Source: Acidovorax sp. SRB_14 | Lineage (GTDB): Bacteria > Pseudomonadota > Gammaproteobacteria > Burkholderiales > Burkholderiaceae_C | DNA length: 64,000 nucleotides | Reading direction: 5' to 3' | Assembly: GCF_012932145.1 (NCBI RefSeq) | Contig: NZ_MWOK01000006.1 | Span: 62,001 to 126,000, forward strand | Shown here: in pieces, positions 46,292 through 61,366 of the stretch | Position numbering within the stretch: the stretch's first letter is position 1 | Layout: the number at the start of each line of letters is the position of its first letter | Translations under genes and position numbers: made by a program | Notes under the pieces: model-generated | What the model was told of the DNA's origin: nothing | Database searches by the model: none | Seen by the model: the letters and a program-made list of their open reading frames with translations, nothing else

Positions 46292-46301
46292 AAATGTGCC
46301 G

Positions 46302-47648
46302 ATGCCCGCCCGCCTGACGCCCGCCGCCGCTGCGCTCCCGCCGCCCAGTGCCGCCGCGCGCAGCGCCGAGCGCGGCGATGCCACGGGCTTTAAGAACATG
46401 CAGCAGCTGATCCAGCTGCGCTGGTTCGCCGTGGTCGGGCAGATCCTCACCATCGAGGTAGCGCGCTACACCTTTGGCGTGCCGCTGCCGCTGCCGCAGA
46501 TCGGGACCGTGATCGCCTGCCTGGTGCTGTTCAATGCGGCCAGCATGCTGCGCTGGCGCCGGGGCCGCCGCGTCGCCAATGGCGAGCTGTTCTTTGCGCT
46601 GCTGGTCGATGTGCTCATGCTCACCGCGCTGCTGCACCTCAGCGGCGGCGCCACCAACCCGTTTTCTTTCCTGTATCTGTTGCAGGTGACGCTGGGCGCG
46701 GTGCTGCTCAGCGGCTGGACGGTGTGGGCGATGGTGGCCATCACCACGGCCTGTTTTGTCGCGCTGGCCGCGGTCAGCCCGCCGCTGGTGTTCGCCCAGG
46801 GGCTGGAGGCGGGGCTGGCGAGCCCGCAGATGCAGGGCTTTCTGGTCTGTTTCGTGCTCAATGCGGCGCTGGTCGGGGTCTTCATCACCCGCATCAGCCG
46901 CAACCTGCGCCTGCGCGACGCACGCCTGGCCAGCCTGCGCCAGCGCGCCGCCGAGCACGAGCACATCGTGCGCATGGGCCTGCTGGCCTCGGGCGCCGCG
47001 CACGAGCTGGGCACGCCGCTGGCCACGCTGGCGGTGATCCTGGGCGACTGGCGGCGCATGCCGGCCTTTGCCCAGCAGCCCGAGCTGCTGCAGGAAATCG
47101 CCGAGATGGAGCACGAGCTGCAGCGCTGCAAGACCATCCTCAGCGGCATCCTGCTGTCGGCCGGCGAGGCGCGCGGCGAATCGTCTGCGGGGACCACGCT
47201 GCACGCGTTTCTCGACGGCCTGGTGCAGATGTGGCGCGCCACACGCTCGTCGGCGGCGCTGGCCTATACCAACCGCATCGGCCCCGATCTGCCCATGGTC
47301 TCGGACTCGGCGGTGCAGCAGATGATCTGCAACGTGCTCGACAACGCCCTGGAGGCCTCGCCCGCCGGCATGCACCTGGACGCCACGCGCGAGGACGGCA
47401 TGCTCGTGCTCACCGTGACCGACACGGGACCGGGCTTCGCCCCCGGCATGCTGGCGAACTTCGGCACGCCCTACCAGTCCACCAAGGGCCGCCCCGGCGC
47501 GGGCCTGGGCCTGTTCCTGGCGGTGAACGTGGCGCGCACGCTGGGCGGCACGGTGAGCGCCTGCAATCGCCCCGGCGGCGGTGCCAGCGTGACCCTTCGG
47601 CTGCCGCTGTCGGCCGTGACCCTGGAGGACGCTGCCCATGCCGACTGA
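46302..47648 (+). CDS. regB: RegB/PrrB/ActS-family redox sensor histidine kinase
   Basis: 448 aa, about six TM helices in residues 35-200. The quinone-binding-type heptapeptide GGATNPF (residues 115-121) matches the RegB GGxxNPF motif. The H-box is SGAAHELGTPLATL (H234). ATPase: NVLDNALEASPAGMHL, DTGPGFAPGML, GRPGAGLGLFLAVNVARTLGG. RegB senses the redox state of the quinone pool. It overlaps regA by 11 bp and follows the cyo-SURF1 genes. GTG 46296 is an alternative start. Confidence 0.92.
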   Translation: MPARLTPAAAALPPPSAAARSAERGDATGFKNMQQLIQLRWFAVVGQILTIEVARYTFGVPLPLPQIGTVIACLVLFNAASMLRWRRGRRVANGELFFALLVDVLMLTALLHLSGGATNPFSFLYLLQVTLGAVLLSGWTVWAMVAITTACFVALAAVSPPLVFAQGLEAGLASPQMQGFLVCFVLNAALVGVFITRISRNLRLRDARLASLRQRAAEHEHIVRMGLLASGAAHELGTPLATLAVILGDWRRMPAFAQQPELLQEIAEMEHELQRCKTILSGILLSAGEARGESSAGTTLHAFLDGLVQMWRATRSSAALAYTNRIGPDLPMVSDSAVQQMICNVLDNALEASPAGMHLDATREDGMLVLTVTDTGPGFAPGMLANFGTPYQSTKGRPGAGLGLFLAVNVARTLGGTVSACNRPGGGASVTLRLPLSAVTLEDAAHAD

Positions 47649-48174
47649 ACGATTGCTGCTGGTGGTCGAGGACGACGCGGCCTTTGCGCGCACGCTCGGC
47701 CGCTCGTTCGAGCGGCGCGGCTACCGCGTGCTGCTGGCCAGCAGCCAGGGCGAGGCGCTGGCGCTGCTGCGCACGCATTCGCCGGGCTACGCGGTGGTCG
47801 ATCTCAAGCTCCACGGCGACGCCTCGGGCCTGGCCTGCGTGCAGGCGCTGCACGCGCACAGCGCCGACATGCTGATCGTCGTGCTCACCGGCTTCGCCAG
47901 CATCGCCACCGCGGTCGAGGCCATCAAGCTGGGGGCCTGCCATTACCTGGCCAAGCCCTCGAACACCGACGACATCGAGGCGGCCTTCGGCCGCGCCGAG
48001 GGCCGCACCGAGGTCGAGCTGACCAACCGCTCCTCCTCCATCAAGACGCTGGAGTGGGAGCGCATCCACGAGGTGCTGGCCGAGACAGGCTTCAACATCT
48101 CCGAGACCGCGCGGCGCCTGGGCATGCACCGGCGCACGCTGGCGCGCAAGCTCGAAAAGCAGCAGGTCAAGTAG
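47638..48174 (+). CDS. regA: RegA/PrrA/ActR-family response regulator
   Basis: 178 aa. Receiver with VEDDAAFARTLGRSFERRGY, phospho-acceptor D55 in YAVVDLKLHGDASGL and Lys in HYLAKPSNTDD; C-terminal Fis-type helix-turn-helix NISETARRLGMHRRTLARKLEK, nearly invariant in RegA proteins. Global regulator of respiratory genes according to redox state. Ends the cyoABCD-SURF1-regBA run; repeat copy F lies just after it. Confidence 0.94.
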   Translation: MPTERLLLVVEDDAAFARTLGRSFERRGYRVLLASSQGEALALLRTHSPGYAVVDLKLHGDASGLACVQALHAHSADMLIVVLTGFASIATAVEAIKLGACHYLAKPSNTDDIEAAFGRAEGRTEVELTNRSSSIKTLEWERIHEVLAETGFNISETARRLGMHRRTLARKLEKQQVK

Positions 48175-48373: not shown

Positions 48374-48389
48374 GGGCACGCTGTTTGCC
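48374..48389 (+). promoter_or_regulatory. Candidate sigma-54 promoter of the KGG gene
   Basis: GGGCACG-CTGT-TTGCC: -24 GG at 48375-48376, -12 GC at 48387-48388, spacing 12, matching TGGCACG-N4-TTGC except the first T. 73 bp before the ATG at 48462. Confidence 0.65.
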
Positions 48390-48461: not shown

Positions 48462-48905
48462 ATGGCTTCGACCAACCAAGGCGGAAATCAAGGCAACCAG
48501 GGCGGCAACCAAGGCGGCAGTGGCGGTCGCAGCAGCGGCAGCGGCAGTCAAGGGGGCAGCGATTCTTCCCATCGCGGTTTTGCTGCAATGGACCCTCAAC
48601 AGCAGCGTGAGATTGCTGCAGAAGGAGGCCGTGCCGCCCACCAGAGCGGCAACGCCCATGAATTCACCTCTCAAGAGGCCCGCGAAGCGGGCAAAAAGAG
48701 CCATGGCGGCTCCGGCTCTTCCAGCGAAGGAGGCTCGTCGGGCAGCCGGTCCTCCGGCAGCGGCAGCGACTCCGGCAGTGGCAACCGCTCCGGCAGCGGC
48801 GGCGGGCAGACCGCGGGGTCGGGGGGATCGGGTTCGAGCACCCGGGGCGGCACCAGCGAACAGCATGCCGCAGCCGGGCGCCAGAGCCACAAGAATGACC
48901 GCTGA
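48462..48905 (+). CDS. KGG-motif general stress protein (YciG/Con-10-like)
   Basis: 147 aa, hydrophilic and Gly/Ser-rich. The core RGFAAMDPQQQREIAAEGGRAAHQSG and EFTSQEAREAGKKSHGG are two KGG (stress-induced/Con-10) repeats (about residues 42-85). The flanks are low-complexity Ser/Gly runs. The last 15 residues (EQHAAAGRQSHKNDR) form a third, degenerate KGG-like unit shared with the protein at 9956. ATG 48462 follows an AGGAG site. Upstream sigma-54 element at 48374; strong terminator downstream. Confidence 0.88.
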   Translation: MASTNQGGNQGNQGGNQGGSGGRSSGSGSQGGSDSSHRGFAAMDPQQQREIAAEGGRAAHQSGNAHEFTSQEAREAGKKSHGGSGSSSEGGSSGSRSSGSGSDSGSGNRSGSGGGQTAGSGGSGSSTRGGTSEQHAAAGRQSHKNDR

Positions 48906-48955
48906 CCCCCGCGCCGATCGGCCGATGGTGCGATAGAAGCGCACGCATCGCCTTT

Positions 48956-48994
48956 GCGCCCTGCTTCGGTTCCGAAGGCAGGGCGCAGTTCTTT
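48956..48994 (+). terminator. Strong hairpin terminator after the KGG gene
   Basis: GCGCCCTGC (48956-48964) pairs with GCAGGGCGC (48978-48986), and the stem continues with TTCGG/CCGAA (one bulged G) to a TT loop, then AGTTCTTT. 50 bp after the KGG stop. Confidence 0.7.
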
Positions 48995-49025
48995 CTGCCT
49001 TTTTTGCGCATGCGCGCCGACCGCC

Positions 49026-49420
49026 ATGCCCGAAAGCAAGCGGCCTTCCTTGCCGTCCTCGCGCGCCGTGCCCTGCCCCGCCTTCGAGCCGCGTGGCGCT
49101 GCTGCTGCTCGATTTCATCCCCCGCTGGACTTCGAGGGGGCCGAGGGTTGGCTGGCGCCGGGCACGGGCGATCTGACGGTGCTCAAGCCCCGCCATTCGG
49201 CCTTTTTTGCCACGCCGCTGGACATGCTGCTGCGCGAGATCGGCGGGGAAAAGATCGTCCTCGTGGGCCTGGCGGCCGACATGTGCGTGCATTTCATGGC
49301 GGTCGATGCGTTCATGCGCGGTGATGCCGTGGGGGTGCCGGCGACTGCGTGGCCGCCGCAACCGCACAGGCGCATCGGGCGCTGCAGCACATGGCGCACA
49401 CGCTCAAATGCGGCCCGCTC
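49026..49420 (+). pseudogene. Decayed isochorismatase-family hydrolase
   Basis: Remains of a cysteine hydrolase spread over three frames. VALLLLDFI (catalytic Asp block) is in one frame; DFEGAEGWLAPG and LTVLKPRHSAFFATPLDMLLREIGGEKIVLVGLAADMCVHFMAVDAFMRGD (Lys and Cys catalytic blocks) are in a second; DCVAAATAQAHRALQHMAHTLKC (C-terminal helix) is in a third. Two frameshifts and loss of the ~60-70 residues normally found between the Asp and Lys blocks make it non-functional. The start at 49026 is approximate. Confidence 0.8.
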
Positions 49421-49942
49421 GCGCGGGCGCCATCCATTCGACAGCGTGCGGCGCAAAAAAGCCGGGGGCTGATCGGGAGGCGCAGCCCACGGGAAGCCTT
49501 GCGGCCATGCCACCCACCGCAGGGGAGGCGTTGCATGGGCCTGGCATCTTTTGCGGCAAATAGTGCGACCGTGCCCCCCGGAGCAGGCCAACGGGGCCGG
49601 CCGCACAGGCGCGCTTAAGCGCTTGAGCGCGGCCTCCAGCTGGCTTTTGGTCATGTTCGAGCGCCCGGCAATGCCGCGCTGGCGTGCCTCTTCGTACAGC
49701 TGTGCGCGCGTGCGGCCGCGCGCGCCGCTGTGCGAGCGCAGGCCACCGCGCCGGCTGGGCGAGAGATCGTCGGTCGAGGTGCGGCTGCTCGCGCGCGCTT
49801 CCCCCTTTTGCGCGCGCACTTTGTTGACGGTGCGGGCGGCAATCTCCTCGGCCACCGGGGCAGACTTGCCTTCCTTGAGCTCGCTGCCTTTGATGTGTTC
49901 GTACTGGCGTTCGCGCTTGGCGCTCCATTGGCTTTTAGGCAT
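49115..49942 (-). CDS. Small Rho-N-like basic protein with an aberrant C-terminal extension
   Basis: 275 aa. The conserved part is the first ~110 residues: MPKSQWSAKRERQYEHIK, AEEIAARTVNKVRAQKGEARASSRTSTDDLSPSRRGGLRSHSG, then a SAP/Rho-N-like helix pair RTRAQLYEEARQRGIAGRSNMTKSQLEAALKRLS. Homologues I know of end about there. Here the frame continues for ~165 residues, the last ~100 of them antisense to the isochorismatase pseudogene, so the original stop appears lost. Start 49942; a sigma-54 element lies 38-50 bp upstream. Confidence 0.75.
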   Translation of the reverse strand: MPKSQWSAKRERQYEHIKGSELKEGKSAPVAEEIAARTVNKVRAQKGEARASSRTSTDDLSPSRRGGLRSHSGARGRTRAQLYEEARQRGIAGRSNMTKSQLEAALKRLSAPVRPAPLACSGGHGRTICRKRCQAHATPPLRWVAWPQGFPWAAPPDQPPAFLRRTLSNGWRPRERAAFERVRHVLQRPMRLCGCGGHAVAGTPTASPRMNASTAMKCTHMSAARPTRTIFSPPISRSSMSSGVAKKAEWRGLSTVRSPVPGASQPSAPSKSSGG

Positions 49943-49978: not shown

Positions 49979-49994
49979 AGCAAAAGCTGTGCCT
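49979..49994 (-). promoter_or_regulatory. Candidate sigma-54 promoter of the Rho-N-like gene
   Basis: Minus strand AGGCACA-GCTT-TTGCT: -24 GG at 49993-49992, -12 GC at 49981-49980, spacing 12. About 38 bp before ATG 49942. Divergent from, and 10 bp away from, the element at 50003. Confidence 0.6.
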
Positions 49995-50002
49995 GCTTGG
50001 CC

Positions 50003-50018
50003 GGGCACACCGATTGCC
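50003..50018 (+). promoter_or_regulatory. Candidate sigma-54 promoter of the glycine/tyrosine-rich gene
   Basis: GGGCACA-CCGA-TTGCC: -24 GG at 50004-50005, -12 GC at 50016-50017, spacing 12. 103 bp before ATG 50121. Confidence 0.6.
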
Positions 50019-50120
50019 GAAGAGACACCGTGCACACCGGCGGCTGCCCCCAACGGCAGCCGCTGGCTATGCCACTTGCGGCAGATGGCTGCCGAACTCG
50101 TTTTACTGAAAGGATCTTCC

Positions 50121-51239
50121 ATGCAATCGCGTAACTATCAGGATCAGAGCCGGGGCAACGACGATCGCGGTTCCCAGCAGGGCAACCCGGGACAGGGCAA
50201 TACGGGCGAGTACGCCAATTACGGCATGCGCGATGACAGCCGCCAGGGCGGCGGCTCGCAGGGCTACCAGGGTGGCCAAAGCCAGCAAGGCAGCTACGGC
50301 GGCCAGAGCCAGCAAGGCGGCTACGGCGGTCAAGGGCACCAAGGCGGCTACGGCGGTGGCCAGAGCCAACAGGGTGGCTATGGCGGCCAGGGCCAGCAAG
50401 GTGGATACGGCGGTGGCGCGTCGTATGGACAGGGTTCGAGCGGTGGCTATGGCGGCTACGGCGGCAGCTCCTACGGCCAGGGCGGCCAGCAGTCGGGCCA
50501 GGGCTCGCAGGGCATGCGCCATGACCTGACCGGTGAGATGGACTACGGCATCGAGGGCGGCCAAAGCCGCAACTACGGCGGTAACTCGACCCAGGGCTAC
50601 GGCGGCTCGCAAGGCGGCCACTGGGGTTCCCAGCAGGGCGGCGGCTCCTCGTACCAGGGCCAGGGGGGATACGGCGGCGCGCAGGGCGGCTACGGTTCGC
50701 ACCAGGGCGGCTATGGCGGTGCCTCGCACCAGGGCGGCTACGGCGGTTCGCAAGGCGGCTACGGTGGAGGCTCGCAGGGCAGCTATGGCCCGCAGCAAGG
50801 CGGTGGCCAGGGCGGCATGCACCACGACCACGACTACCACCAGTGGCGCAACGACCAGCTGCGCCAGCTCGACGAGGACTACGACGCCTGGCGCCAAGAG
50901 CGTTACAGCAAGTTCTCCGATGAGTTCGGCAAATGGCGCAGCGGCCGCCGCAGCGGCCAGGGGCAGGACCAGGGGAGCAGCGGCTCGCAAAGCGGCGGCA
51001 GCACCTCGACTTCCTCGGGCGGCCACACCAGCGCTTCCGGGGCAGGCTCACCCGGCCAGCATGGCACGGCTTCGGGCAGCGGCAGTTCGGGCTCCCAGGG
51101 CACGGCGGGTTCCGCCAGCAGCACGGGCAGCAGCGGAGCTACGGGAAGCAGCGGTTCGGGCAGCAGCGGCAGCAGCGGCTCTTCCGGCACGGGCAGCGAC
51201 AGCTCCTCCTCCGGCTCGAGCAGCAGCCGCCATAAATAA
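50121..51239 (+). CDS. Gly/Tyr/Gln/Ser-rich low-complexity protein
   Basis: 372 aa. Residues about 40-235 are repeats of the type GGYGGQ/QQGGYGG/SYGG, rich in G, Y, Q and S with almost no hydrophobic or charged residues, a composition like prion-like phase-separating domains. A compact conserved core follows (about 238-280): HDYHQWRNDQLRQLDEDYDAWRQERYSKFSDEFGKWR. The C-terminus is a Ser/Gly tail. No signal peptide. AGGAT site before ATG 50121. Function unknown; stress or dormancy assembly is an inference. A sigma-54 element and a strong terminator bracket it. Confidence 0.85.
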   Translation: MQSRNYQDQSRGNDDRGSQQGNPGQGNTGEYANYGMRDDSRQGGGSQGYQGGQSQQGSYGGQSQQGGYGGQGHQGGYGGGQSQQGGYGGQGQQGGYGGGASYGQGSSGGYGGYGGSSYGQGGQQSGQGSQGMRHDLTGEMDYGIEGGQSRNYGGNSTQGYGGSQGGHWGSQQGGGSSYQGQGGYGGAQGGYGSHQGGYGGASHQGGYGGSQGGYGGGSQGSYGPQQGGGQGGMHHDHDYHQWRNDQLRQLDEDYDAWRQERYSKFSDEFGKWRSGRRSGQGQDQGSSGSQSGGSTSTSSGGHTSASGAGSPGQHGTASGSGSSGSQGTAGSASSTGSSGATGSSGSGSSGSSGSSGTGSDSSSSGSSSSRHK

Positions 51240-51577: not shown

Positions 51578-53095
51578 TCAGTGCGGAGGGCCCGCAGCGC
51601 GCTGCTCGGCCGGCGGCAGGCCCAGCTGCTGGCGGTATTTGGTCACGGTGCGGCGCGCCACGTCGATGCCCTGGCGCTGCAGCTGCTGCGCGATGGCCAC
51701 GTCCGAGAGGCGCTGCAGCGCGGATTCGCTGGCGATCATCTCCTGCACCAGACCGCGGATGGCAGTGGGCGAGTACCCGGCGCCTGTTTCGGAGGACAGC
51801 GCACGCGAGAAGAAGTGCTTGAGCTCGAACGTGCCCGAGGGCGTGGCCATGTATTTCTGGTGCGTGACGCGCGAGACGGTGGAGATGTGCACGCCCAGTT
51901 CATCGGCCACCTCGCGCAGGCCCAGCGGCCGCATCGCCATGGGTCCATGGTCGAAAAACGGCTGCTGGCGCCGCAGGATCGACTGCGCCACCTGCAGGAT
52001 GGTGGAGAAGCGCTGCGCCACGTGCCGCACCGTCCAGCGCGCCTCATTGAGCTGCGCGGTCAATTCGCTGCAGGCACCGCGCGGGCTCTTCTGCAGCAGG
52101 GTGGCATAGGTGGTGTTGACATGGACCTTCGGCACCACCGCGTCGTTGAGCATCGCCGTCCAGCCGCTGCGCGTGCGCCGCACGATCACATCGGGCGTGA
52201 TGTAGCGCGTCGGGGGACCGCCCACCTGCCAGCCCGGGTGCGGGTCGAGCCGGCGCAGGCCCTGCAGCGCGTCGTGCGCGGCCTCGGCGGTGCAGCGCAG
52301 GGTGCGCGCCACCTGGCGCGCATCGCCCAGCGTACCGGTGCGGTGCACGTGCTCCAGCAGCCGAGCACACAGGGCGCGCGCGCGCGCGCAGGGCACGGCT
52401 CCGAGCTGCAGCGCCAGGCATTCGGCCAGATCGCGCGCGCCCACGCCCGCGGGCTCCAGGCTTTGCACGCACGCCAGCGCCGTTTCGAGTTCCTCTGCGG
52501 TGGCGCACGGCGCCAGGTCGGCGGTCGCGGCCAGTTCGCGCAGGTCGCAGCGCAGGTAACCGTCGTCCTGCAGTTCCTGCGCCACCAGGCAGGCCAGCAC
52601 GAAGCTGCGGTCGGGCAGCCGCATCAGGCGCAGCTGGGCCTGCAGGTGCTCGTGCAGCGTGGTGCCCATGGCCACAGCGTCCATCGGGTCGAAAGGCGCT
52701 GCGCTCTGGCGCTCGCCGCCGGCATCGGACAGGGTGGCGGCCTCCCACGGTGCGGTGTCGGGCGCGCCGGCCCAGGCTTCGTCCGCGGTGTCACCGGGGG
52801 ACTCGGACGGGCCGCGTGCATCGGCGGAACCGGGGTCGGCATCCGTGGGCCCGCCGGCGCCGAGGGCCGCCTCCGCGGCCGCAGCGTCTGCCGCGCTGGC
52901 AGCTCCTGCGGTGCTCGGCGCAGGCGGCGGCGCGCCGTGCTCCTCGGCTTCCAGGAACGGGTTGTCTGCGAGGGTCGATGAAATGGCTTGGTTGAACTCG
53001 GCCGTGGACATTTGCAGCAGGGCCACCGCTCTTTGCAGCCGTGGCGACATGGTGTGCTGCTGGGCATGCTGGAACTGAAGGGCAAGCACAGGCAT
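51578..53095 (-). CDS. rpoN: RNA polymerase sigma-54 factor
   Basis: 505 aa. Region I: LQFQHAQQHTMSPRLQRAVALLQMSTAEFNQAI; an Ala/Asp/Pro-rich linker (about 50-130); core-binding domain LAQELQDDGYLRCDLRELA and GVGARDLAECLALQL; HTH LREVADELGVHISTVSRVTHQKYM; RpoN box ARRTVTKYRQ (about 480-489). Complete. It is not flanked by the lptB/hpf/ptsN-type genes that usually accompany the housekeeping rpoN, so it is probably a paralogue. It sits beside an EBP, a hybrid kinase and seven -24/-12 sites. Confidence 0.94.
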   Translation of the reverse strand: MPVLALQFQHAQQHTMSPRLQRAVALLQMSTAEFNQAISSTLADNPFLEAEEHGAPPPAPSTAGAASAADAAAAEAALGAGGPTDADPGSADARGPSESPGDTADEAWAGAPDTAPWEAATLSDAGGERQSAAPFDPMDAVAMGTTLHEHLQAQLRLMRLPDRSFVLACLVAQELQDDGYLRCDLRELAATADLAPCATAEELETALACVQSLEPAGVGARDLAECLALQLGAVPCARARALCARLLEHVHRTGTLGDARQVARTLRCTAEAAHDALQGLRRLDPHPGWQVGGPPTRYITPDVIVRRTRSGWTAMLNDAVVPKVHVNTTYATLLQKSPRGACSELTAQLNEARWTVRHVAQRFSTILQVAQSILRRQQPFFDHGPMAMRPLGLREVADELGVHISTVSRVTHQKYMATPSGTFELKHFFSRALSSETGAGYSPTAIRGLVQEMIASESALQRLSDVAIAQQLQRQGIDVARRTVTKYRQQLGLPPAEQRAAGPPH

Positions 53096-53668
53096 GGGAC
53101 AGGAACTCCAGGCATAAGACAAACAGGACGGCACCGCTCTCTGCCACGCCATGGGCGCTTCGCCGGGGCCGGTCCACTGCGCCGGCCCCGCGTTTGCCGA
53201 AGCATCTGCCCCGGCCCCCGGTCCTTGGTCCGCGCGGAGAGGAAGGTCTGCCCCCCCACCGAGAGGGCCCGAAGGCGGGGAGGCGGTGCGGCACCACCTG
53301 TTCGCACTGCAAGGTGCATGCCACGCGGTGGCTTGGCGGGCCCACCCCGGACGCAGGGGGAGCCGGCCGCCCACCTGGGCTTGACTGGGCCGGTGCCCGG
53401 TGGCCACCGGCGGCCCATGCCATCGGGTGCTCTCAGGTAACTATTGCGGCAAACTCTGCGCCAGCGGATGCGCAGGGCGTGGCCCATCGGCGTTGAATCC
53501 CAGGCCTGGATCTGCCGACCCCAGGCACCGGTGCCGCCGGCGGTTTCGCACCGATGCGCGTGGCGCCGCACCCAAGCGCACGACCCGCCCGTGGGGGCAC
53601 GGCGCAACGTCCCCGCAGAAAGCAGGCGCGTTGTTTGCTTTACCGCAGTGAGGCGGAGGTGTCTACGT
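53096..53668. other. Long intergenic region upstream of divergent rpoN and hybrid kinase
   Basis: 573 bp, very GC-rich. No credible gene on either strand; the open frames here are long only because stops are rare. It holds a candidate sigma-54 promoter at 53624. The rpoN promoter should lie near 53100-53200 but no confident box is visible. Confidence 0.5.
53624..53639 (+). promoter_or_regulatory. Candidate sigma-54 promoter of the hybrid kinase gene
   Basis: AGGCGCG-TTGT-TTGCT: -24 GG at 53625-53626, -12 GC at 53637-53638, spacing 12, with a perfect TTGCTT -12 and one change (A to G) in the -24 box. 29 bp before ATG 53669. Confidence 0.5.
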
Positions 53669-56600
53669 ATGCATTCATGGAGCAAGCGGCGTGCCGTGAT
53701 GGGAAAAAAAATGCGTTTTGCCCGGCTGTGGTGCCGGCGCCGGATGCGCCGTGCCACTGCGCGGCTGGATCGGCGCATGCCGGCCGCCTCGCTCAAGACC
53801 TATTTGGTCGCGGTGATTCTGCTGGCCACGGTGCCCGTGGCGCTGTTGCTGACCTACAAGGTCGCCAGCGACGTGCGCAGCGGGCGCCACAGCGCGGTCG
53901 CCATGCTCCAGCAGGCCGCGGCGGGCCTGGCGCAGATGGCCGAACAGGACCTGACCGCGTCGTTCGACGCGCTGACCTCGCTGAGCATGGCCCAGGCGCT
54001 GCAGGACGGCGACATGCCCGCCTTCGAGAAATACCTGCGCCAGATGCCGCTGCGCCGCTCGCAGTGGCGCAGCGTCTTCGTCACCGATGCCATGGGGCGC
54101 ATGCTGCTCGACACGGCCGCACCGCCCCATGGGCTGCTGCCGGTGCACGAGGAAACGCGCGCCCTGGTGTTCAAGGTGCTGGCGCGGGGGCGCGGCGCCG
54201 TCTCCGACCTGTCATGGCACACGGCGGAGGGCACGCAGGTCGTGGTGTTGGCCGTGCCGGTCTACCAGAACGGAGTGGTCCAGCACGTGCTGGGCACCCG
54301 CATGTCGGCCGCTTCGTGGCTGCGGCTGCTCGACAGCGCGGCGGTGCCCGAGGGCGGATACGCCGCACTGTTCGACACGAACGAGCGCGCGATTGCGATC
54401 AAGGAGGCGCCGCTGGCCCCCGCTCCGCCCGGCCCGGACCAGGCCACGCCCGAGACGCCGGCGCAACTGGCCTCCGAGGCCGCGCGCGGGTTCCAGCGCC
54501 GCAACGACAGCGCCCGGCAGACCGTGGTGCTGCAAACCGACGCGGTGCTCTCCACCTGGCACCGGGTCGGGGACACCAGCTGGAGCGCCAGCGTCGGCCT
54601 GCCGGCCGGGCCCATCCGCGCCGCAGAGCACATCATCGTGCTGTCGGCCCTGACGACCATGGGCGCATCGCTGCTGCTCGGGGTGACGCTGGCGCTGCTG
54701 CTGGCCTGGCGCCTGGCCGAGCCGCTGCGCCGCCTGGCCGCGGGCGGCCTGGTGCCGCCCGGCCAGCATCTGCCGGTGCTCGAGATCGCGCAGCTGGGCC
54801 GTTCGCTGCAGCGGGCGCGCCAGCGCGACAACGCCGCACGCGAGGCGCTGCAGAACAAGGCCGCGGAGTTCGAGACGCTGTTCAACAGCAGCCCGATCGG
54901 GCTGGCGTTTGCCGAGGACAGCATGGGGCGCAGCATCCTCTACAACCCGGCCATGAAGCAACTGCTGGGGCTGGATGCCCAGCGCCGTCCTGGCGGCGTG
55001 CAGGTGTTCTACCGCGGCCGGCGCCTGGAGCCCGGCGAGCAGCCGCTGCTGCGCGCCTGCATGCACGCCGAAACCGTGGGCGCGATGGAGATGGAGATGC
55101 GCGTCGAAGGCCGCTCGCCCGCGTTCGTCGTGGCCAGCGCGGTGCCGCTGCTCGACGCGCAGGGGCGTGCACGCGGCGCCGTGAGCGCCGTCATGGACAT
55201 CACCGAACTCAAGCAGGTGGTGGCGCTGTGGCTGGCGGCCGACGAGGGCCAGCATGCGCGCCAGCGCCTCATCGACCTGGCGCAGGAGGCGGGCCATGTC
55301 GGCTTCTTCGAATACAGCTACGGCAGCGACGCGCTGGTGTGCACGCCCGGCATGCGGCAGCTGCTGCGCGCGCCCGAGCCAGCGCCGCTGGCGCACCTGC
55401 AGGACTGGCTGGAGCTGGTCGACGCACGCGATCGGCCGGTGCTGCGCCGTGTGCTGGCCGAGGCGGTGGCGCAGCGGGCCGAGCGCGCGAGCCTCGAATA
55501 CCGCGTGAAGGCGGCGCCCGGCGAAGGCATCGAGGACGCCGAAGGCACGGTGGTGCGCTGGCTGTCGTGCCGCGTGCTGCTGCGCTACGGCCCCGATGGC
55601 CAGCCCGAGCACGCCTCGGGCACGATGGTGGACGCGACCGAACAGAAAGAGGCGCAGCTGCGCGGCCAGCGGCAGACCGAGCAGGAGCAGGCCGCGCGCC
55701 GGCAGGCCGAGGCCGCCAACCGCGCCAAAGACGAATTCCTGACCATGCTCAGCCACGAACTGCGCAACCCGCTCGGCGCCATCACGGCCGCGCTGGAAGT
55801 GCTCGACAGCGGCGCGGGCGGGCCGGCCACGGCCCAGCGCGCGCTGGCGGTCGTCACGCGCCAGACGCGCCACCTCACCCACATGGTGGGCGACCTGCTC
55901 GACGCCGGGCGCGTCGCGACTGGCAAGGTGCGCATGGTGCGCGCGCCCCTGGACCTGGCGCAGGTGGTCGAGCGCGTGCGCGACGCGCTGGAGCTGTCCG
56001 GGGAACTGAACGCGCACGCGTGGTCGTTCTCGCTCGAGACCGTGCTGGTGTGCGGCGACAGCGTGCGCCTGGAGCAGGTGGTCGTCAACCTGCTGGCCAA
56101 TGCCATGCAGTATTCGCCCGCCGGCGCACCGATCCGCGTGGAAGTGCGCCCCGAGGGCGGCAGTGCACTCTTGCGCGTGAGCGACGAGGGCAGCGGCATT
56201 GCGCCGGCGCTGCTGCCGCAGGTTTTCGAGCTGTTCGTGCAGGGCGAGCGGCCGCTGCACCGGCGCGGCGGCGGGCTGGGCGTGGGCCTGACGATGGTGC
56301 GCCGCCTGGTCGAACTGCACGGCGGCACCGTCGAGGTGCACAGCGTGCCCGGCGAAGGCGCGGTCTTCACGGTGCGCCTGCCGACCTGGGCGGCCGACCA
56401 GCCCGGTGCCGCGCTGGCGCACAGCGCCGCGCCGGGCCCGCCACCGGCCGTGCCATCCGCGGCGCAGCGCGGCGGCCGGCGCAGCAGGCCGCTGGCCGTG
56501 GTGCTGATGGAAGACAACGACGACGTGCGCCAGTCGATGCAGGCCATGCTCGAACTCGACGGGCACGGCGTGGCCACGGCGGCCGACGGGCGCACGGGCC

Positions 56601-56842
56601 TGGCGCAACTGCTCACCCAGCGCCCCGATGCCGCCATCGTCGACATCGGCTTGCCCGGCCTGGATGGCTTCGAGGTGGCACGGCGCGCGCGCGCCGGTGG
56701 CTATGCCGGGCGCATGGTGGCCGTCACGGGCTACGGCCAGGCGCACAGCCGGCGCGACGCGCTCAAGGCAGGGTTTGACGCCTACCTGGTCAAGCCGGTC
56801 GATGCCGCGCAGTGGCGCGCAGCGCTCTACAGCGAGGCCTGA
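53669..56842 (+). CDS. Hybrid histidine kinase with Cache-like sensor, PAS domains and receiver
   Basis: 1057 aa. TM1 (about 43-63) and TM2 (about 318-345) enclose a periplasmic dCache-like sensor. Two PAS domains (about 400-520 and 530-660) lead to HisKA with LTMLSHELRNPLGAITAALEVL (H696), HATPase (LLANAMQYSPAGAPIRVEV, DEGSGIAPALLPQVFELFVQG, GGGLGVGLTMVRRLVELHGG) and a C-terminal receiver (LMEDNDDVRQ, D992 in AAIVDIGLPGLDGFEV). ATG 53669 follows a GGAGG site at 9 nt; the longer frame from 53444 is unlike the family. A likely input to the EBP at 58016 (inference). Confidence 0.92.
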   Translation: MHSWSKRRAVMGKKMRFARLWCRRRMRRATARLDRRMPAASLKTYLVAVILLATVPVALLLTYKVASDVRSGRHSAVAMLQQAAAGLAQMAEQDLTASFDALTSLSMAQALQDGDMPAFEKYLRQMPLRRSQWRSVFVTDAMGRMLLDTAAPPHGLLPVHEETRALVFKVLARGRGAVSDLSWHTAEGTQVVVLAVPVYQNGVVQHVLGTRMSAASWLRLLDSAAVPEGGYAALFDTNERAIAIKEAPLAPAPPGPDQATPETPAQLASEAARGFQRRNDSARQTVVLQTDAVLSTWHRVGDTSWSASVGLPAGPIRAAEHIIVLSALTTMGASLLLGVTLALLLAWRLAEPLRRLAAGGLVPPGQHLPVLEIAQLGRSLQRARQRDNAAREALQNKAAEFETLFNSSPIGLAFAEDSMGRSILYNPAMKQLLGLDAQRRPGGVQVFYRGRRLEPGEQPLLRACMHAETVGAMEMEMRVEGRSPAFVVASAVPLLDAQGRARGAVSAVMDITELKQVVALWLAADEGQHARQRLIDLAQEAGHVGFFEYSYGSDALVCTPGMRQLLRAPEPAPLAHLQDWLELVDARDRPVLRRVLAEAVAQRAERASLEYRVKAAPGEGIEDAEGTVVRWLSCRVLLRYGPDGQPEHASGTMVDATEQKEAQLRGQRQTEQEQAARRQAEAANRAKDEFLTMLSHELRNPLGAITAALEVLDSGAGGPATAQRALAVVTRQTRHLTHMVGDLLDAGRVATGKVRMVRAPLDLAQVVERVRDALELSGELNAHAWSFSLETVLVCGDSVRLEQVVVNLLANAMQYSPAGAPIRVEVRPEGGSALLRVSDEGSGIAPALLPQVFELFVQGERPLHRRGGGLGVGLTMVRRLVELHGGTVEVHSVPGEGAVFTVRLPTWAADQPGAALAHSAAPGPPPAVPSAAQRGGRRSRPLAVVLMEDNDDVRQSMQAMLELDGHGVATAADGRTGLAQLLTQRPDAAIVDIGLPGLDGFEVARRARAGGYAGRMVAVTGYGQAHSRRDALKAGFDAYLVKPVDAAQWRAALYSEA

Positions 56843-57191
56843 GGCCCGCGCAGGCGCCGCTGCGTTCGGGTGCCAAGCGGTGGCTGCCGCATGGCGCTAT
56901 ATTTTGTATAGCAGTATACGATTGGCAGGTAAGGGCTGAGGGCCGATTTGGCTTGAATCCGCGGCGGCGCGGACGCCCTGGTGCCCTGCGCCCGGAGGGT
57001 CGCGCGGCCGGGCCGGCTGCGCCGCCCGCGCACACGGTTCGTGGCACAGAAACCGGTCCCCCGCGGCAGCGCCGCGGCGCCCGGGCATGCGGCTTGCCGG
57101 TTTTGCATGGAGCTGGCCGCCCGCACGGCGGAAGGGGTGCGGCGCCGTGGTCGGATGGGCAGCATCTTTTTCCAGGGCTGAAAGGACAGGC
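56843..57191. other. Intergenic region with a dyad and a sigma-54 element
   Basis: 349 bp without a gene. At 56906-56919 GTATA-GCAG-TATAC forms a perfect inverted repeat in an AT-rich patch (56895-56930), a possible regulator site or promoter. The -24/-12 element at 57083 lies 165 bp further on. The rest is GC-rich and unremarkable. Confidence 0.5.
57083..57098 (+). promoter_or_regulatory. Candidate sigma-54 promoter of the YciE-like gene
   Basis: GGGCATG-CGGC-TTGCC: -24 GG at 57084-57085, -12 GC at 57096-57097, spacing 12, one change (C to T) from GGCACG. 94 bp before ATG 57192. Confidence 0.6.
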
Positions 57192-57710
57192 ATGAAAGCT
57201 TCCGAACAAAACCTGACGGACTGGCTGCGCGAGGCGCATGCGATGGAAGAGCATGCCGAACGCATGCTCACGGGTGCCGCGGCGCGCCTGGGCCACTGCC
57301 CCCGGCTGCAGGAGCGCCTGCAGCTGCATGCCTGCGAGAGCCGCCAGCAAGGCCGCCTGCTGCGCGAGTGCATTGAGCGCCGTGGCGGTTCCGTCCCCTG
57401 GGCCATGCCGGCGGTCGCCCTGGCAGAGCCCGTGGCGCAGTGCGCCAGTGGCCTGCGCGTGTCCGACGCAGGTGCCGAGGCGGTGCTGAGCGTCTATGCC
57501 TTCAAGCACCTCGAGATCGGCTCGTACCGGATGCTGCAGAGCGGCGCCCACCAGGTGGGCGACACGCAAACCCAGCAGGTGTGCGAGCGCATCCTGGCGC
57601 AAGAAAGGGCCATGGCCGATTGGCTTTTCGGCCAGATTCCCGCGATCACCCAGGAATTTCTTCAGCACGCCGACGGCCCGGCCGAGACCGCCCATCAGGC
57701 TGCGCCCTGA
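57192..57710 (+). CDS. YciE/DUF892-like ferritin-fold protein
   Basis: 172 aa, all-helical. LTDWLREAHAMEEHAERMLTGAAARL and HACESRQQGRLLRECIERRGGSVP form the first helix pair, and VYAFKHLEIGSYRMLQSGAHQVGD with ILAQERAMADWLFGQIP the second, the layout of DUF892 (YciE/YciF). Conserved E/H positions could bind a di-metal site. In E. coli the yciGFE genes are stationary-phase stress genes with a KGG protein; a KGG protein is also present in this island. AAAGGACAGG site before the ATG. Confidence 0.78.
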   Translation: MKASEQNLTDWLREAHAMEEHAERMLTGAAARLGHCPRLQERLQLHACESRQQGRLLRECIERRGGSVPWAMPAVALAEPVAQCASGLRVSDAGAEAVLSVYAFKHLEIGSYRMLQSGAHQVGDTQTQQVCERILAQERAMADWLFGQIPAITQEFLQHADGPAETAHQAAP

Positions 57711-58015
57711 GCCGCACGCTCGGCGCGGCCCCCCCGTTCCCCTCGTGGCGCCGCGCGGCGGGGGCGCAGCCTTTTGGGGCCTTTTCTTTTTTGTTTCCCA
57801 CCCCCCCAGCGTGCAAGGATTTTTGCGGGCCTGAACCGGGGTGACCGCGGGGCGGGGGTCCGCGGACGCCCGTGTTTGCGCCAGCCCTGGACCCGCAAAG
57901 CGGCCAGCACCGCAGCGGCACGGACAGGCCTTGTGGGTACAGGGCGTTACAGGCGCGCGCGGGCCGGCCGAGATAATTGCGCTTCACGTGGCAGAACAAC
58001 AAGTGGAGCGTTTGC
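57711..58015. other. Intergenic region upstream of the sigma-54 activator gene
   Basis: 305 bp. A T-rich stretch at 57772-57798 after a short GC stem may end the upstream transcript. No convincing -24/-12 element was found before the activator: the nearest GG...GC pairs have 13-14 nt spacing. No gene seen. Confidence 0.45.
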
Positions 58016-59413
58016 ATGGGACTTGCGCTGATCGTTGACGACGATGCCGACGCGGCAGAAATGCTCGCAGCACTGATCGAGTCCGAAGGCTACAACGTTG
58101 CCACCGCCCATTCGCTGGCAGAAGCGCGCAAGTGCATGGCGCTGCAGCCGCCCGATCTGGTGCTGCTCGATCTGCACCTGCCCGACGGCAGCGGCCTGTC
58201 GCTGTTCGGCGAGCAGTCGCTGCTGTGCAACGCGCAGGTGGTGCTGGTCACCGGCCACGCCACGCTCGAGACCTCGATCGAGGCGCTGCGCCTGGGCGCG
58301 GCCGACTACCTGGTCAAACCCGTCAACCTCACGCACCTGCGCGGCGTGCTCTCGCGCGTCATGCGCCCCTCGGTCATCGCGGCCGAGCTGCAGTCGTGGC
58401 GGCAAAGCCTGCACGACACCGGGCGCTTCGGCCACCTGGTCGGCCGCTCCGAACCGATGCAGCGCGTGTACGAACAGATCGCCCGCGTGGCGGGCACGTC
58501 GGTGACGGTCTTCATCGTCGGCGAAAGCGGCACCGGCAAGGAACTGGTGGCGCAGACGGTGCACGACCTCAGCCGCCGGCGCAAGCAGCCTTTTCTGGCG
58601 GTGAACTGCGGGGCCATCTCGCCGCACCTGATGGAGAGCGAGATCTTCGGCCACGAAAAGGGCAGCTTCACCGGCGCCGACCGCCAGCACCAGGGGTTCT
58701 TCGAACGCGCCCACGGCGGCACGCTGTTCCTCGACGAGGTGACGGAGATGCCGCTGGAGCTGCAGGTCAAGCTGCTGCGCGTGCTCGAGACCGGCACCTT
58801 CATGCGCGTGGGCTCGGGCGTCGAGCGCAGCACCGACGTGCGCATCGTCGCCGCCACCAACCGCGACCCGATGGGCGCGGTGGAGGCCGGCGCGCTGCGC
58901 GAAGACCTGCTCTACCGGCTCAACGTGTTTCCCATCGTGCTGCCGCCGCTGCGTGCGCGCCTCGAAGACATCGAGCTGCTCGGCCAGCACTTCCTGCGCG
59001 ACATCGGCCAGCGCGAGGGCGCGCCCAAGCAGCTCACGGCCGCGGCGCTGCAGCGGCTGCAGGCCTACCAGTGGCCGGGCAATGTGCGCGAGCTGCGCAA
59101 TGTGCTGCAACGCGCCTATGTAATGGCCGAAGGCGCCGCCATCACCGACGAATGGCTGCCGACCAATGGCTCGGGCCCCGCGATCGCGCCGCGCGGCGTG
59201 GGCGCCGGTGCCCCGGCGGGCAGCGATGCGCTGAGCTTTCCGGTCGGCAGTTCGCTGGCGGACGTGGAGCAGCAGCTCATCCTGCGCACCCTGCGGCATT
59301 TCGACAACCACAAGGAGCGCACGGCCGCCGCGCTCGGGGTGAGCCTCAAGACGCTCTACAACAAGCTCAAGGGCTACGAAGCCAACGACGCCGCGGCCAC
59401 GCACGGCAAGTAA
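58016..59413 (+). CDS. NtrC-family sigma-54-dependent response regulator
   Basis: 465 aa. Receiver (ALIVDDDADAAEML, phospho-acceptor D52, Lys in ADYLVKPVNL), AAA+ domain (Walker A GESGTGKE, sigma-54-contacting GSFTGA, Walker B GGTLFLDEV, ATNRD, second region of homology YRLNVFPIVLPPLRAR) and a Fis-type HTH (NHKERTAAALGVSLKTLYNKLKGY). The GAFTGA loop has Ser for Ala, a tolerated variant. It is the obvious activator for the -24/-12 promoters around it. Confidence 0.95.
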   Translation: MGLALIVDDDADAAEMLAALIESEGYNVATAHSLAEARKCMALQPPDLVLLDLHLPDGSGLSLFGEQSLLCNAQVVLVTGHATLETSIEALRLGAADYLVKPVNLTHLRGVLSRVMRPSVIAAELQSWRQSLHDTGRFGHLVGRSEPMQRVYEQIARVAGTSVTVFIVGESGTGKELVAQTVHDLSRRRKQPFLAVNCGAISPHLMESEIFGHEKGSFTGADRQHQGFFERAHGGTLFLDEVTEMPLELQVKLLRVLETGTFMRVGSGVERSTDVRIVAATNRDPMGAVEAGALREDLLYRLNVFPIVLPPLRARLEDIELLGQHFLRDIGQREGAPKQLTAAALQRLQAYQWPGNVRELRNVLQRAYVMAEGAAITDEWLPTNGSGPAIAPRGVGAGAPAGSDALSFPVGSSLADVEQQLILRTLRHFDNHKERTAAALGVSLKTLYNKLKGYEANDAAATHGK

Positions 59414-59442: not shown

Positions 59443-60171
59443 CTAGGCGCCGGTGGCGCTGCGGGCCTTGCCGGGCTTGATGTTCTGCGCATGTTCCAGG
59501 TGTTCGCGCAGGGTGGGGAGTTTTTGTGCGACCCAGGCTTTCAAGTCCGCGTCCTTGGCCGAGGTGCTGGCTTTTTCAAACAGCGCCACGGCCGCCTTGT
59601 GCTCTTTCACGCCGGTGTTGCGCATGTATTCGGCATCGAAATCCTTGGCCTTGGAGAGCCGGTCCAACTCCTTGCGCTTGTCCGCAGGCATGTCCTGGGG
59701 CAGGGTCACGCCGCGGGCGCTGGCCAGCGCCATCAGTTCCTGGTTGGCCTTTTCATGGTCGGAGACCATCATCTGCGCGAAGTCCCGCACCTCGCCGCTG
59801 CTGGCGCGCTGCGCGGCCAGGCGCGAGGCCTCGACCTCGTACAGGCCCGAGCCGGCGGCCTTGGTCATAAAGGTGCGGTCCGCCGCCGCCATGGCACCGG
59901 CCGTCGCCTGCCCACTGGCGCTGCTGGGCGTGCTGGCGCCGGCTGCGGCGGGGGCAGCGGTGCTGCGGGGCGTGCTGGCGGCCGGGCCGCTGCCCATGGG
60001 GCTGCTGCTTCCACTTGGTCCGGTGCCGCCGCCGGGCCCGCCGGAACTGCTGGTGCCCGTGCTGCCGGTGCCGCCGGTACCACCGGCAGAGCCGCCCATT
60101 TGCGCTGCGGCAGGCAAGGCCAGCGCCATGGCGACCGCCAGGGCGACAGGGGTCAGGGAAAACGATTTCAT
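59443..60171 (-). CDS. DUF4142 exported protein
   Basis: 242 aa. Signal peptide (about 1-23, ending PAAAQ), a Gly/Ser/Thr-rich linker (about 25-95), then DUF4142 helices: AADRTFMTKAAGSGLYEVEASRLAAQRASSGEVRDFAQMMVSDHEKANQELMALASARGVTLP, and VALFEKASTSAKDADLKAWVAQKLPTLREHLEHAQNI. Ferritin-like helical bundle in the periplasm; function unknown. Divergent from the SDR gene, each with its own sigma-54 element. Confidence 0.9.
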   Translation of the reverse strand: MKSFSLTPVALAVAMALALPAAAQMGGSAGGTGGTGSTGTSSSGGPGGGTGPSGSSSPMGSGPAASTPRSTAAPAAAGASTPSSASGQATAGAMAAADRTFMTKAAGSGLYEVEASRLAAQRASSGEVRDFAQMMVSDHEKANQELMALASARGVTLPQDMPADKRKELDRLSKAKDFDAEYMRNTGVKEHKAAVALFEKASTSAKDADLKAWVAQKLPTLREHLEHAQNIKPGKARSATGA

Positions 60172-60215: not shown

Positions 60216-60231
60216 AGCAAACGGCGTGCCG
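60216..60231 (-). promoter_or_regulatory. Candidate sigma-54 promoter of the DUF4142 gene
   Basis: Minus strand CGGCACG-CCGT-TTGCT: -24 GG at 60230-60229, -12 GC at 60218-60217, spacing 12. The best match of the seven. 45 bp before ATG 60171. Confidence 0.75.
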
Positions 60232-60259: not shown

Positions 60260-60275
60260 GGGCACGGCGCTTGCT
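60260..60275 (+). promoter_or_regulatory. Candidate sigma-54 promoter of the SDR gene
   Basis: GGGCACG-GCGC-TTGCT: -24 GG at 60261-60262, -12 GC at 60273-60274, spacing 12. 48 bp before ATG 60323 and back to back with the element at 60216. Confidence 0.75.
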
Positions 60276-60322: not shown

Positions 60323-61366
60323 ATGCACGCCAAGAAGAACGGCAGCGGCAGCGCTGCTTCTGGCCCACACACCGCGCCAGGCGCCCAGGCCACCGCAGAA
60401 CCACAGGCCCGCCTGCAGCAAGGGCAAGACCAGCACGACGCCGCCACACCAAAAGCCCCCAAGGGAAAGGAAGACGACCAGAAAGCGGCGGCCCCCGGCC
60501 CCGGCCTTGCCGAACCCGCACCGCCCCTGCCCCGGCAGCACCTGCGCAAGCCCGGCCGCGAAGCGGACATGGAACTCCCACCCCGCTTCGAAGCCCCGCA
60601 CTACCGGGGCAGCGGCAAGCTCCAAGGCTTTTCCACGCTGATCACCGGCGGCGACTCGGGCATTGGCCGCGCGGTCGCGGTGCTGTTTGCGCGCGAAGGC
60701 GCCAACGTGGCCATCGTCTACCTCAACGAACACGAAGACGCCGAGGCCACACGCGCCCAGGTCGAGAAGGAGGGCGGGCGCTGCCTGCTGATCCCAGGCG
60801 ACGTCAAGGACGCGGCGTTCTGCAAGGCAGCGGTCGAGCAGACCGTCAAGGCGTTTGGCGGCCTGCAGGTGCTGGTCAACAACGCGGCCTTCCAGGAGCA
60901 CGCGGCGTCGCTCGAGGAGCTGAGCGAAGAGCGCTTTGACGAGACGCTGCGCACCAACGTCTACGGCTACTTCCACATGGCCAAGGCGGCTCTCGCCCAC
61001 CTCGAGCGCGGCTCGTGCATCATCAACACCGGCTCGGTGACCGGCCTGCGCGGCAGCAAGGGGCTGCTCGACTATTCGACCACCAAGGGGGCCATCCACG
61101 CCTTCACCAAGGCGCTGGCGGCCAACGTGGCCGACAGGGGCATCCGGGTCAATGCCATCGCGCCCGGCCCGGTGTGGACGCCGCTCAACCCGGCCGACCA
61201 GTCGCCCGACGACATTGCGCAGTTTGGCCAGGACACCGACCTGGGCCGCCCCGCGCAGCCCGAGGAGCTCTCGCCCGCATACGTGTTCCTCGCGGCGCCG
61301 TGCTGCTCGAGCTACATCACCGGCATCGTGCTGCCCGTGACCGGCAACGTCGGCGATGGTGCCTGA
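60323..61366 (+). CDS. YghA-like SDR oxidoreductase
   Basis: 347 aa. A disordered Lys/Gln/Ala/Pro-rich N-terminus (about 1-75) precedes PPRFEAPHYRGSGKLQGFSTLITGGDSGIGRAVAVLFAREGANVAIVYLNEHEDAE, the extended-N-terminus SDR subgroup of E. coli YghA. Catalytic Ser (INTGSVTG), Tyr/Lys (YSTTKGAIHAF). The AGGAGG site 7 nt before ATG 60323 is nearly ideal. Substrate unknown; relatives are stress-induced. Confidence 0.9.
   Translation: MHAKKNGSGSAASGPHTAPGAQATAEPQARLQQGQDQHDAATPKAPKGKEDDQKAAAPGPGLAEPAPPLPRQHLRKPGREADMELPPRFEAPHYRGSGKLQGFSTLITGGDSGIGRAVAVLFAREGANVAIVYLNEHEDAEATRAQVEKEGGRCLLIPGDVKDAAFCKAAVEQTVKAFGGLQVLVNNAAFQEHAASLEELSEERFDETLRTNVYGYFHMAKAALAHLERGSCIINTGSVTGLRGSKGLLDYSTTKGAIHAFTKALAANVADRGIRVNAIAPGPVWTPLNPADQSPDDIAQFGQDTDLGRPAQPEELSPAYVFLAAPCCSSYITGIVLPVTGNVGDGA

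Follow-up and report, generated by a model that had tools for sequence, protein, structure and literature searches.

Organization of the locus and of the encoded protein

The window, i.e. the whole stretch of 64,000 nucleotides of Acidovorax sp. SRB_14 DNA that was analyzed, carries a gene for a low-complexity protein (hereafter the 50121 gene and the window protein), a convergent rpoN paralogue (rpoN2) adjoining its 3' side, and several genes preceded by sigma-54-type elements (Table 1). A reading made beforehand from the sequence alone had described the neighbours as stress-type; Pfam confirmed this for the KGG, DUF892, DUF4142, short-chain dehydrogenase (SDR), RpoN and NtrC-type activator genes. 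The divergent 49942 (-) ORF has a relative in locus L067 (72% over the N-terminal part). A shortened isochorismatase-like ORF at 48954-49472 (+), matching Pfam positions 82-144 of 175, overlaps the 3' part of the 49942 (-) ORF and is probably a pseudogene remnant.

Table 1. Features around the 50121 gene, in window coordinates.
Feature	Position	Strand	Basis
Sigma-54-type element GGGCACGCTGTTTGCC, before KGG gene	48374..48389	+	pattern scan
KGG-motif stress protein, also Gly/Ser-rich	48462..48905	+	PF10685, 31.9 bits
Divergent ORF MPKSQWSAKRERQYEHIK..., weak Rho_N match below cut-off; 3' end uncertain	49115..49942	-	ORF list, Pfam
Divergent sigma-54-type element AGGCACAGCTTTTGCT, for 49942 (-) gene	49979..49994	-	pattern scan
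Sigma-54-type -24/-12 element GGGCACACCGATTGCC, 102 nt before start codon of 50121 gene	50003..50018	+	pattern scan
Low-complexity protein CDS, 372 aa	50121..51239	+	ORF list; start kept in L027
Gly/Gln/Ser/Tyr low-complexity region (LCD), residues 43-232	50247..50816	+	composition, aromatic spacing
Conserved core, residues 236-276	50826..50948	+	profile, AlphaFold2, 15-residue repeats
Ser/Gly-rich tail, residues 277-372	50949..51236	+	composition
rpoN paralogue (rpoN2), RpoN box VARRTVTKYRQ; likely start residue 105 (53095)	51578..53407	-	Pfam
TGG-type sigma-54 element TGGCATGCACCTTGCA, 212 nt before likely rpoN2 start	53308..53323	-	pattern scan
PAS hybrid histidine kinase reading frame; likely start near 53777	53678..56842	+	Pfam
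Sigma-54-type element CGGCACGCCGCTTGCT, 585 nt before likely rpoN2 start	53681..53696	-	pattern scan
Sigma-54-type element GGGCATGCGGCTTGCC, before DUF892 gene	57083..57098	+	pattern scan
DUF892 ferritin-like protein	57192..57710	+	Pfam
NtrC-type sigma-54 activator (REC-AAA+-HTH_8)	57977..59413	+	Pfam
DUF4142 protein; N-terminus signal-peptide-like by eye	59443..60171	-	Pfam
Sigma-54-type element CGGCACGCCGTTTGCT, before DUF4142 gene	60216..60231	-	pattern scan
Sigma-54-type element GGGCACGGCGCTTGCT, before SDR gene	60260..60275	+	pattern scan
Short-chain dehydrogenase (SDR)	60323..61366	+	Pfam

The N-terminus MQSRNYQDQS is also found in the nearest relative detected, from Simplicispira psychrophila DSM 11588 (L027; MQSRNYQDQSRG...), whose core is 90% identical to that of the window protein. 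A short polar N-terminus is followed by a 190-residue Gly/Gln/Ser/Tyr region, a 41-residue core and a 96-residue Ser/Gly tail. A charged/aromatic core and a Ser/Gly tail had both been noticed before, and both are present; the core limits given at that time, residues 238-280, are replaced here by 236-276. The LCD is composed of 45.3% G, 19.5% Q, 12.1% S and 10.5% Y. Of its 190 residues, 6 are charged and 4 are I, L, V or M, a composition that bears out its earlier description as a FUS-like Gly/Tyr/Gln/Ser domain almost free of charged and aliphatic residues. Adjacent aromatic residues in it lie 3-10 residues apart, with a gap of 24 as the single exception. Pfam assigned zero families to the window protein, KGG (PF10685) and DUF2171 both being absent.

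Hydropathy peaks at -0.15 (15-residue value) over the whole protein, so that neither a signal peptide nor a membrane segment can be seen; on hydropathy alone, the claim that the protein lacks a signal peptide held. This bears on the possibility of a cell-surface or extracellular matrix protein, or an adhesive glycine-rich protein, that would leave the cell by non-classical secretion. Gly/Tyr-rich repeats and Ser/Gly tails may resemble those of structural matrix proteins, and some of the genes linked to sigma-54-type sites encode exported-looking proteins (DUF4142, BON lipoproteins). The hydropathy profile, with neither a hydrophobic segment nor a signal peptide, argues against such a role, as do the Pfam matches of the scanned window neighbours, which include no secretion genes. 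The matrix role, which the sequence-only reading had offered next to a condensate, gained no positive support, and we consider it quite unlikely.

An RGG-type RNA- or nucleoid-binding chaperone, with an LCD that binds nucleic acid, would fit the existence of R-rich relatives, which have up to 20% R before the core. The LCD of the window protein contains about 2 Arg in 190 residues, however, and Pfam and NCBIfam scans detected no RNA-binding domain (RRM/ZnF) or other nucleic-acid-binding domain. The core is acidic (net charge -2) and the whole protein has a net charge of -4, leaving no evident handle for nucleic acid and making this role highly unlikely.

A core-defined family and the spacing of its aromatic residues

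Searches against Pfam, NCBIfam and PDB sequences gave no relevant match, and in particular none to a known secreted or structural family, the finding that had been set in advance as evidence against a condensate or matrix role in stress. An NCBIfam match to SclB was rejected as due to chance (16 bits, cut-off 325). The PDB sequence search returned four weak matches, all to the tail or to low-complexity parts (best E 0.011).

A search with the core matched, at E<=0.01, 22 genomes out of 150 from the same family, among them the window genome. The core profile matched 9 of 398 genomes of the phylum and, in a draw from the class, 1 of 274, which was the window genome itself. A search of a contig collection revealed relatives encoded in 129 contig stretches, the best 80 of which were studied; these all come, judging by their titles, from Betaproteobacteria. 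The core has the consensus DPDYHQWRxEQxRxLDxDYxxWRxERYxKFSDEFxxWRxxR. In the full-length relatives inspected, a polar, Gly-rich disordered half, the core and a tail follow each other in this order (the weak matches L023, L025 and L026, short or not seen whole, were left out of the comparison). The core-bearing proteins are thus a conserved uncharacterised family that is absent from Pfam and NCBIfam. The sequence-only reading mentioned neither this family nor the paralogous nature and altered RpoN box of the neighbouring rpoN.

The core also has other settings. In L111, from the same phylum, it follows a disordered-looking N-terminus and precedes a DUF2171 domain (Pfam), and an SWFGD motif is present too; in L143, on a Sphingomonas plasmid, the core match is annotated as DUF2171. 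These cases indicate that the core is a module that occurs in more than one setting. The window protein shares the core with these alphaproteobacterial-type DUF2171 proteins but has neither DUF2171 (assigned by Pfam in L111 and by annotation in L143) nor the SWFGD motif of L111. A further alphaproteobacterial core, 58.5% identical, lies in a hypothetical protein of a Gemmobacter aquarius plasmid (L142, 4001-4123), next to PRC-barrel, glycine-zipper, DUF1328 and Crp/Fnr genes. Giant forms of 1018-1188 aa, with starts chosen by script, were found in Azohydromonas (L098, L101, L104); they have the core and the promoter motif.

The core is built of 15-residue repeats, YxxWR / YxxWR / FxxWR, the third cut short. 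In a profile of 50 sequences, self-similarity peaked at lag 15 (0.37), no other lag from 5 to 20 exceeding 0.15, and the ten hydrophobic columns (4, 7, 12, 15, 19, 22, 27, 30, 34 and 37) follow a helical period of 3.75, i.e. 15/4. AlphaFold2, run as a monomer with 50 sequences, gave a single helix over residues 12-55 of 61 (block pLDDT 86-97-96-90, pTM 0.50). For the core, the prediction is therefore one helix, made of 15-residue repeats, that carries a straight Tyr/Trp/Phe/Leu stripe. Such a stripe on a lone helix would imply a partner, most simply the helix itself.

In the region before the core, the medians of 88 relatives were 34% G, 14% Q, 11% YFW, 11% S, 6% R, 7% DE, 0% K and 2% ILVM. 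Of 83 distinct proteins, the window protein among them, 81 space Y, F and W more evenly than shuffled sequences do, 71 at an empirical p<=0.05 (median z -2.27); relatives' start codons were chosen by a script rule, and shared ancestry means that the proteins do not amount to 83 independent trials. Applied to S, Q, R, DE, A, T, N and G, this test gave median z values from -0.49 to +1.61, with n from 9 (T) to 83 depending on the residue class, and pooled DEKR residues were blocky (median z +3.47). The window protein itself has an aromatic z of -1.99, and 0 of 300 shuffles were as even. Even spacing is therefore specific to aromatic residues and is kept while composition is kept, which suggests selection for pattern in the low-complexity half. 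Besides composition, this family-wide regularity gives the FUS comparison quantitative support. In one study, regular aromatic spacing is reported to favour phase separation by the FUS, HNRNPA1 and TDP-43 domains, and human transcription factor regions phase-separated more readily in vitro once their aromatic dispersion was raised (PMC11321997).

In part of the coding sequence the DNA repeats in tandem, at periods of 27 nt, 57 nt and other lengths, and the window protein is among the more repetitive members of the family (19% repeated 6-mers). Low complexity made by slippage and drifting without function beyond the core would leave such repeats. Against this, 71 of the 83 proteins have little internal repetition and still show an aromatic z of -2.18, and the promoter motif described below is conserved; we regard repeat drift as extremely unlikely.

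Sigma-54-type sites and the adjacent rpoN2

A sigma-54 promoter had been guessed for the 50121 gene, and the element concerned is GGGCACACCGATTGCC at 50003-50018, which shows the GG-N10-GC spacing of sigma-54-controlled genes. The classical pattern TGGCACN5TTGCW, with up to two mismatches, was no commoner in the window than expected (51 vs 50.65), so that a single site alone could not carry a promoter claim. The intergenic matches of that scan share VGGCACN5TTGCY, which in its exact form occurs 6 times in the window vs 0.63 expected (0 of 100 shuffles). The related pattern VGGMAYN5TTGCY occurs 7 times, always between 48 and 61 kb and never between 1 and 48 kb. Six of these seven sites are correctly oriented and lie 36-102 nt from a start; the genes behind them are the KGG, 49942 (-), 50121, DUF892, DUF4142 and SDR genes.

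The refined VGG pattern was first spotted in the window and afterwards checked in other loci. In 36 of 94 scorable relatives' loci, VGGMAYN5TTGCY was present in the 300 nt before the inferred start, vs 2.3% of 4700 random 300-nt windows from the same loci; the strict motif was absent from the other 58. The 94 were left from 112 inputs after 18 were dropped (16 without the core in the one-strand script, 2 without a start), and they include some loci counted twice and one upstream region, in L019, of only 9 nt. Across 20 loci and the window between 40 and 64 kb, the strict pattern was found 85 times and the reversed pattern once. Spacer length was the decisive control. In the 18 loci with an adjacent rpoN (212 kb), the motif with a 5-bp spacer occurred 67 times and spacers of 2-4 and 6-9 only 1-5 times; the corresponding counts in the other 60 loci, with no adjacent rpoN, were 50 and 3-10. 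Other spacer-5 forms were also enriched in the 18 loci (VGG..TTGCR 20, TGG..TTGCY 9, TGG..TTGCW 5), and T precedes GG in about 14 of the 101 spacer-5 counts. The VGG form is a preference and not a rule, as TGG-type spacer-5 sites also occur. Together, the excess of the refined pattern and the spacer-5 enrichment in relatives indicate that the promoter before the 50121 gene is very probably real, and regulation of this gene by sigma-54, as predicted from the sites, is well supported.

Exact VGGCACN5TTGCY was found 23 times across the genome, with 17 copies outside the window; the reversed control gave 12. Genic and intergenic sites are not separable at that scale, since in GC-rich DNA of this kind even the six exact sites of the window fall within long frames free of stops, and the regulon in this genome is claimed for the cluster only. 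As a candidate activator site, a CGGCA-N5-TGCCG palindrome was detected in 9 of the 94 upstream regions (<=5 in 20 shuffles), at scattered positions, with only 6 of 11 copies upstream of a site. Between the -12 element and the start codon, at 50040-50094, inverted repeats are visible by eye (GCGGCTGCC...GGCAGCCGC and CGGCAG...CTGCCG) that could form leader hairpins.

The window genome has two rpoN genes, one of them within the window. By tblastn, rpoN was detected in 20 of the 80 relatives' loci. It is convergent and 3' of the core gene in 18, separated from it by 65-240 bp in 16 and by ~1.3-1.4 kb in 2; in L029 and L094 it is far from the core gene or at the locus edge. The looser motif was present in 19 of 20 loci with rpoN and in 16 of 57 without (Fisher p 1.2e-7; 3 of the 80 loci not scorable). 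Among the 150 family genomes, at least two Sigma54_DBD matches were found in 13 of 22 core-bearing vs 13 of 128 core-less genomes (p 1.2e-6). The remaining 9 of the 22 core-bearing genomes have a single rpoN, which, with the 58 motif-less upstream regions, means that the link between the protein and RpoN2 is not a strict one.

The RpoN box contacts the -24 element (PMC7057263). It reads ARRTVTKYRQ in the window copy and in all 18 adjacent copies, and ARRTVAKYRE in the other copy of the window genome. Among the second copies read, the T..Q box was found in 12 core-bearing and at least 11 of 128 core-less genomes; the exceptions were G068 (ordinary box in the copy read), G018 (no second match to the query used) and G045 (fragments only). 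RpoN2 is thus more widely distributed than the 50121-type protein. By association, a sigma-54 clade with a changed reader of the -24 element appears to go with sites that mostly lack T before GG. Window rpoN2 is unusually diverged: over its last 420 residues, identity is 39% with the second RpoN of the genome and 44-48% with the adjacent RpoN copies of relatives, and its RpoN box carries the changes A to T and E to Q. The rpoN-adjacent version from Piscinibacter sakaiensis 201-F6 (L037), presumably the PET-degrading Ideonella sakaiensis strain, has several sigma-54-type sites.

As a paralogous RpoN, window rpoN2 resembles the RpoN2 of Rhodobacter, Bradyrhizobium and Ralstonia. It differs from these in its ARRTVTKYRQ box, in its position among stress genes and, by association, in the surrounding sites, which are mostly VGG-type rather than TGG-type. 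Published work mentions small promoter differences for the second sigma-54 copies of Rhodobacter and Bradyrhizobium and two sigma-54 variants in some Burkholderiales (PMC3162934), the presence of rpoN2 in Ralstonia (PMC4371752) and a proposed stress-response role for the second RpoN of Bradyrhizobium (PMC13207237). Among the matches listed in a search of open-licence literature, nothing concerned this protein, the ARRTVTKYRQ box variant or the regulon.

Apart from rpoN, the window neighbours themselves are rarely conserved. Across the 80 loci, 20 of which are shorter than 12 kb, the KGG, 49942 (-) and DUF892 genes were each found once and the PAS kinase never; an NtrC regulator lies near the core gene in 3, with weak matches in 9 more. 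Cluster membership varies, while the sigma factor and the core protein recur together. The 18 loci contain 86 looser-pattern sites: 16 lie before the core gene, 49 before other ORFs, and the remaining 21 have no acceptable ORF within 150 nt. Pfam matches among these 49 ORFs were to hemerythrin (11), RpoN (6), CBS (5), BON (4), SDR (3), AsmA (3), and kinase, receiver and FMN reductase (2 each), with singletons including DUF892 and DUF2383. The sites before RpoN ORFs suggest rpoN autoregulation in six loci. Much of the site-linked set would correspond to the gene content of a general stress response. Similar stress genes are run elsewhere by RpoS, SigB or PhyR-EcfG, and the genes linked to the sites here suggest that sigma-54 offers a route to them.

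Proposed function of the window protein

The architecture, family conservation, aromatic patterning, -24/-12 sites and rpoN2 linkage were all computed; from them we infer oligomerization, condensation and protection, and likewise the inducing stress, the activator and the use of RpoN2 rather than the housekeeping RpoN at the sites. We propose, as a reading with about an even chance of being right, that the protein is a sigma-54(RpoN2)-controlled, stress-induced cytoplasmic self-assembling scaffold in which a helical oligomer carries sticker-spacer arms. Sigma-54, most likely RpoN2, would switch on the stress-gene cluster with the PAS kinase and the NtrC-type activator. The protein would then build up and its core helices oligomerize, raising the valence of the Gly/Gln/Ser spacer arms. 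Evenly spaced Tyr residues would act as stickers that cross-link the oligomers into a reversible condensate, network or gel when the protein is abundant or the cell loses water, and this material may hold or shield cytoplasmic content.

FUS-like composition by itself is no proof of condensation, and a simple hydrophilin role is the main rival of the scaffold. Hydrophilins are defined by a Gly content above 6% and high hydrophilicity, and the window protein, with 33% Gly and a GRAVY of -1.39, fits this compositional definition. As a dispersed, LEA-like protectant, it would shield proteins or hold water in drying or osmotic stress and form no separate phase. The promoter type common to the 50121 gene and the nearby KGG gene, as well as the stress families among the site-linked genes, are consistent with such a protectant. 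The aromatic pattern sets the protein apart from hydrophilins: to our knowledge these need no evenly spaced aromatic residues, whereas even spacing is kept in 81 of 83 relatives, and the aromatic helical core suggests assembly. We judge the dispersed protectant possible but unlikely. Another comparison is with the PF10685 KGG stress proteins, which are GsiB/Con-10-like. Like them, the window protein is hydrophilic and Gly-rich and has a stress context, with a KGG gene 1.2 kb away under the same promoter type; unlike them, it has no KGG match, is aromatic-rich and contains the 15-residue repeat core.

The closest known systems include the FUS/FET prion-like domains of eukaryotic RNA-binding proteins, which are Gly/Tyr/Gln/Ser-rich and poor in charged and aliphatic residues. 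The window protein shares this composition and the evenly dispersed aromatic residues. It differs from these proteins in being bacterial and in having a repeat helix and a Ser/Gly tail where no RNA-binding domain was found. By analogy, it would work like FUS-type proteins without being a member of that group.

More broadly, and tentatively, since we find this wider picture somewhat doubtful, Burkholderiales may possess a dedicated sigma-54 stress system, with an RpoN2 of altered RpoN box, an altered -24 element and a local kinase and activator. Its signature product would be a bacterial FUS analogue, combining a conserved helical oligomerizer with evolvable sticker-and-spacer arms that form stress condensates. 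Prion-like condensate domains have been studied mostly in eukaryotes. If the picture is true, aromatic-patterned prion-like scaffolds arose independently in bacteria, under direct control of a stress sigma factor. A bacterial family whose sequence drifts while its aromatic spacing is kept would provide a natural test of stickers and spacers, with dozens of divergent homologues, and the paired change in RpoN box and promoter element is directly testable.

Directly upstream of the stress cluster, at 46296-48174 (+), lies a pair formed by a sensor kinase and a REC-Fis regulator (Pfam for the regulator alone). The pair looks like RegB/RegA (PrrBA), and it adjoins ORFs that look by eye like cytochrome oxidase and SURF1.
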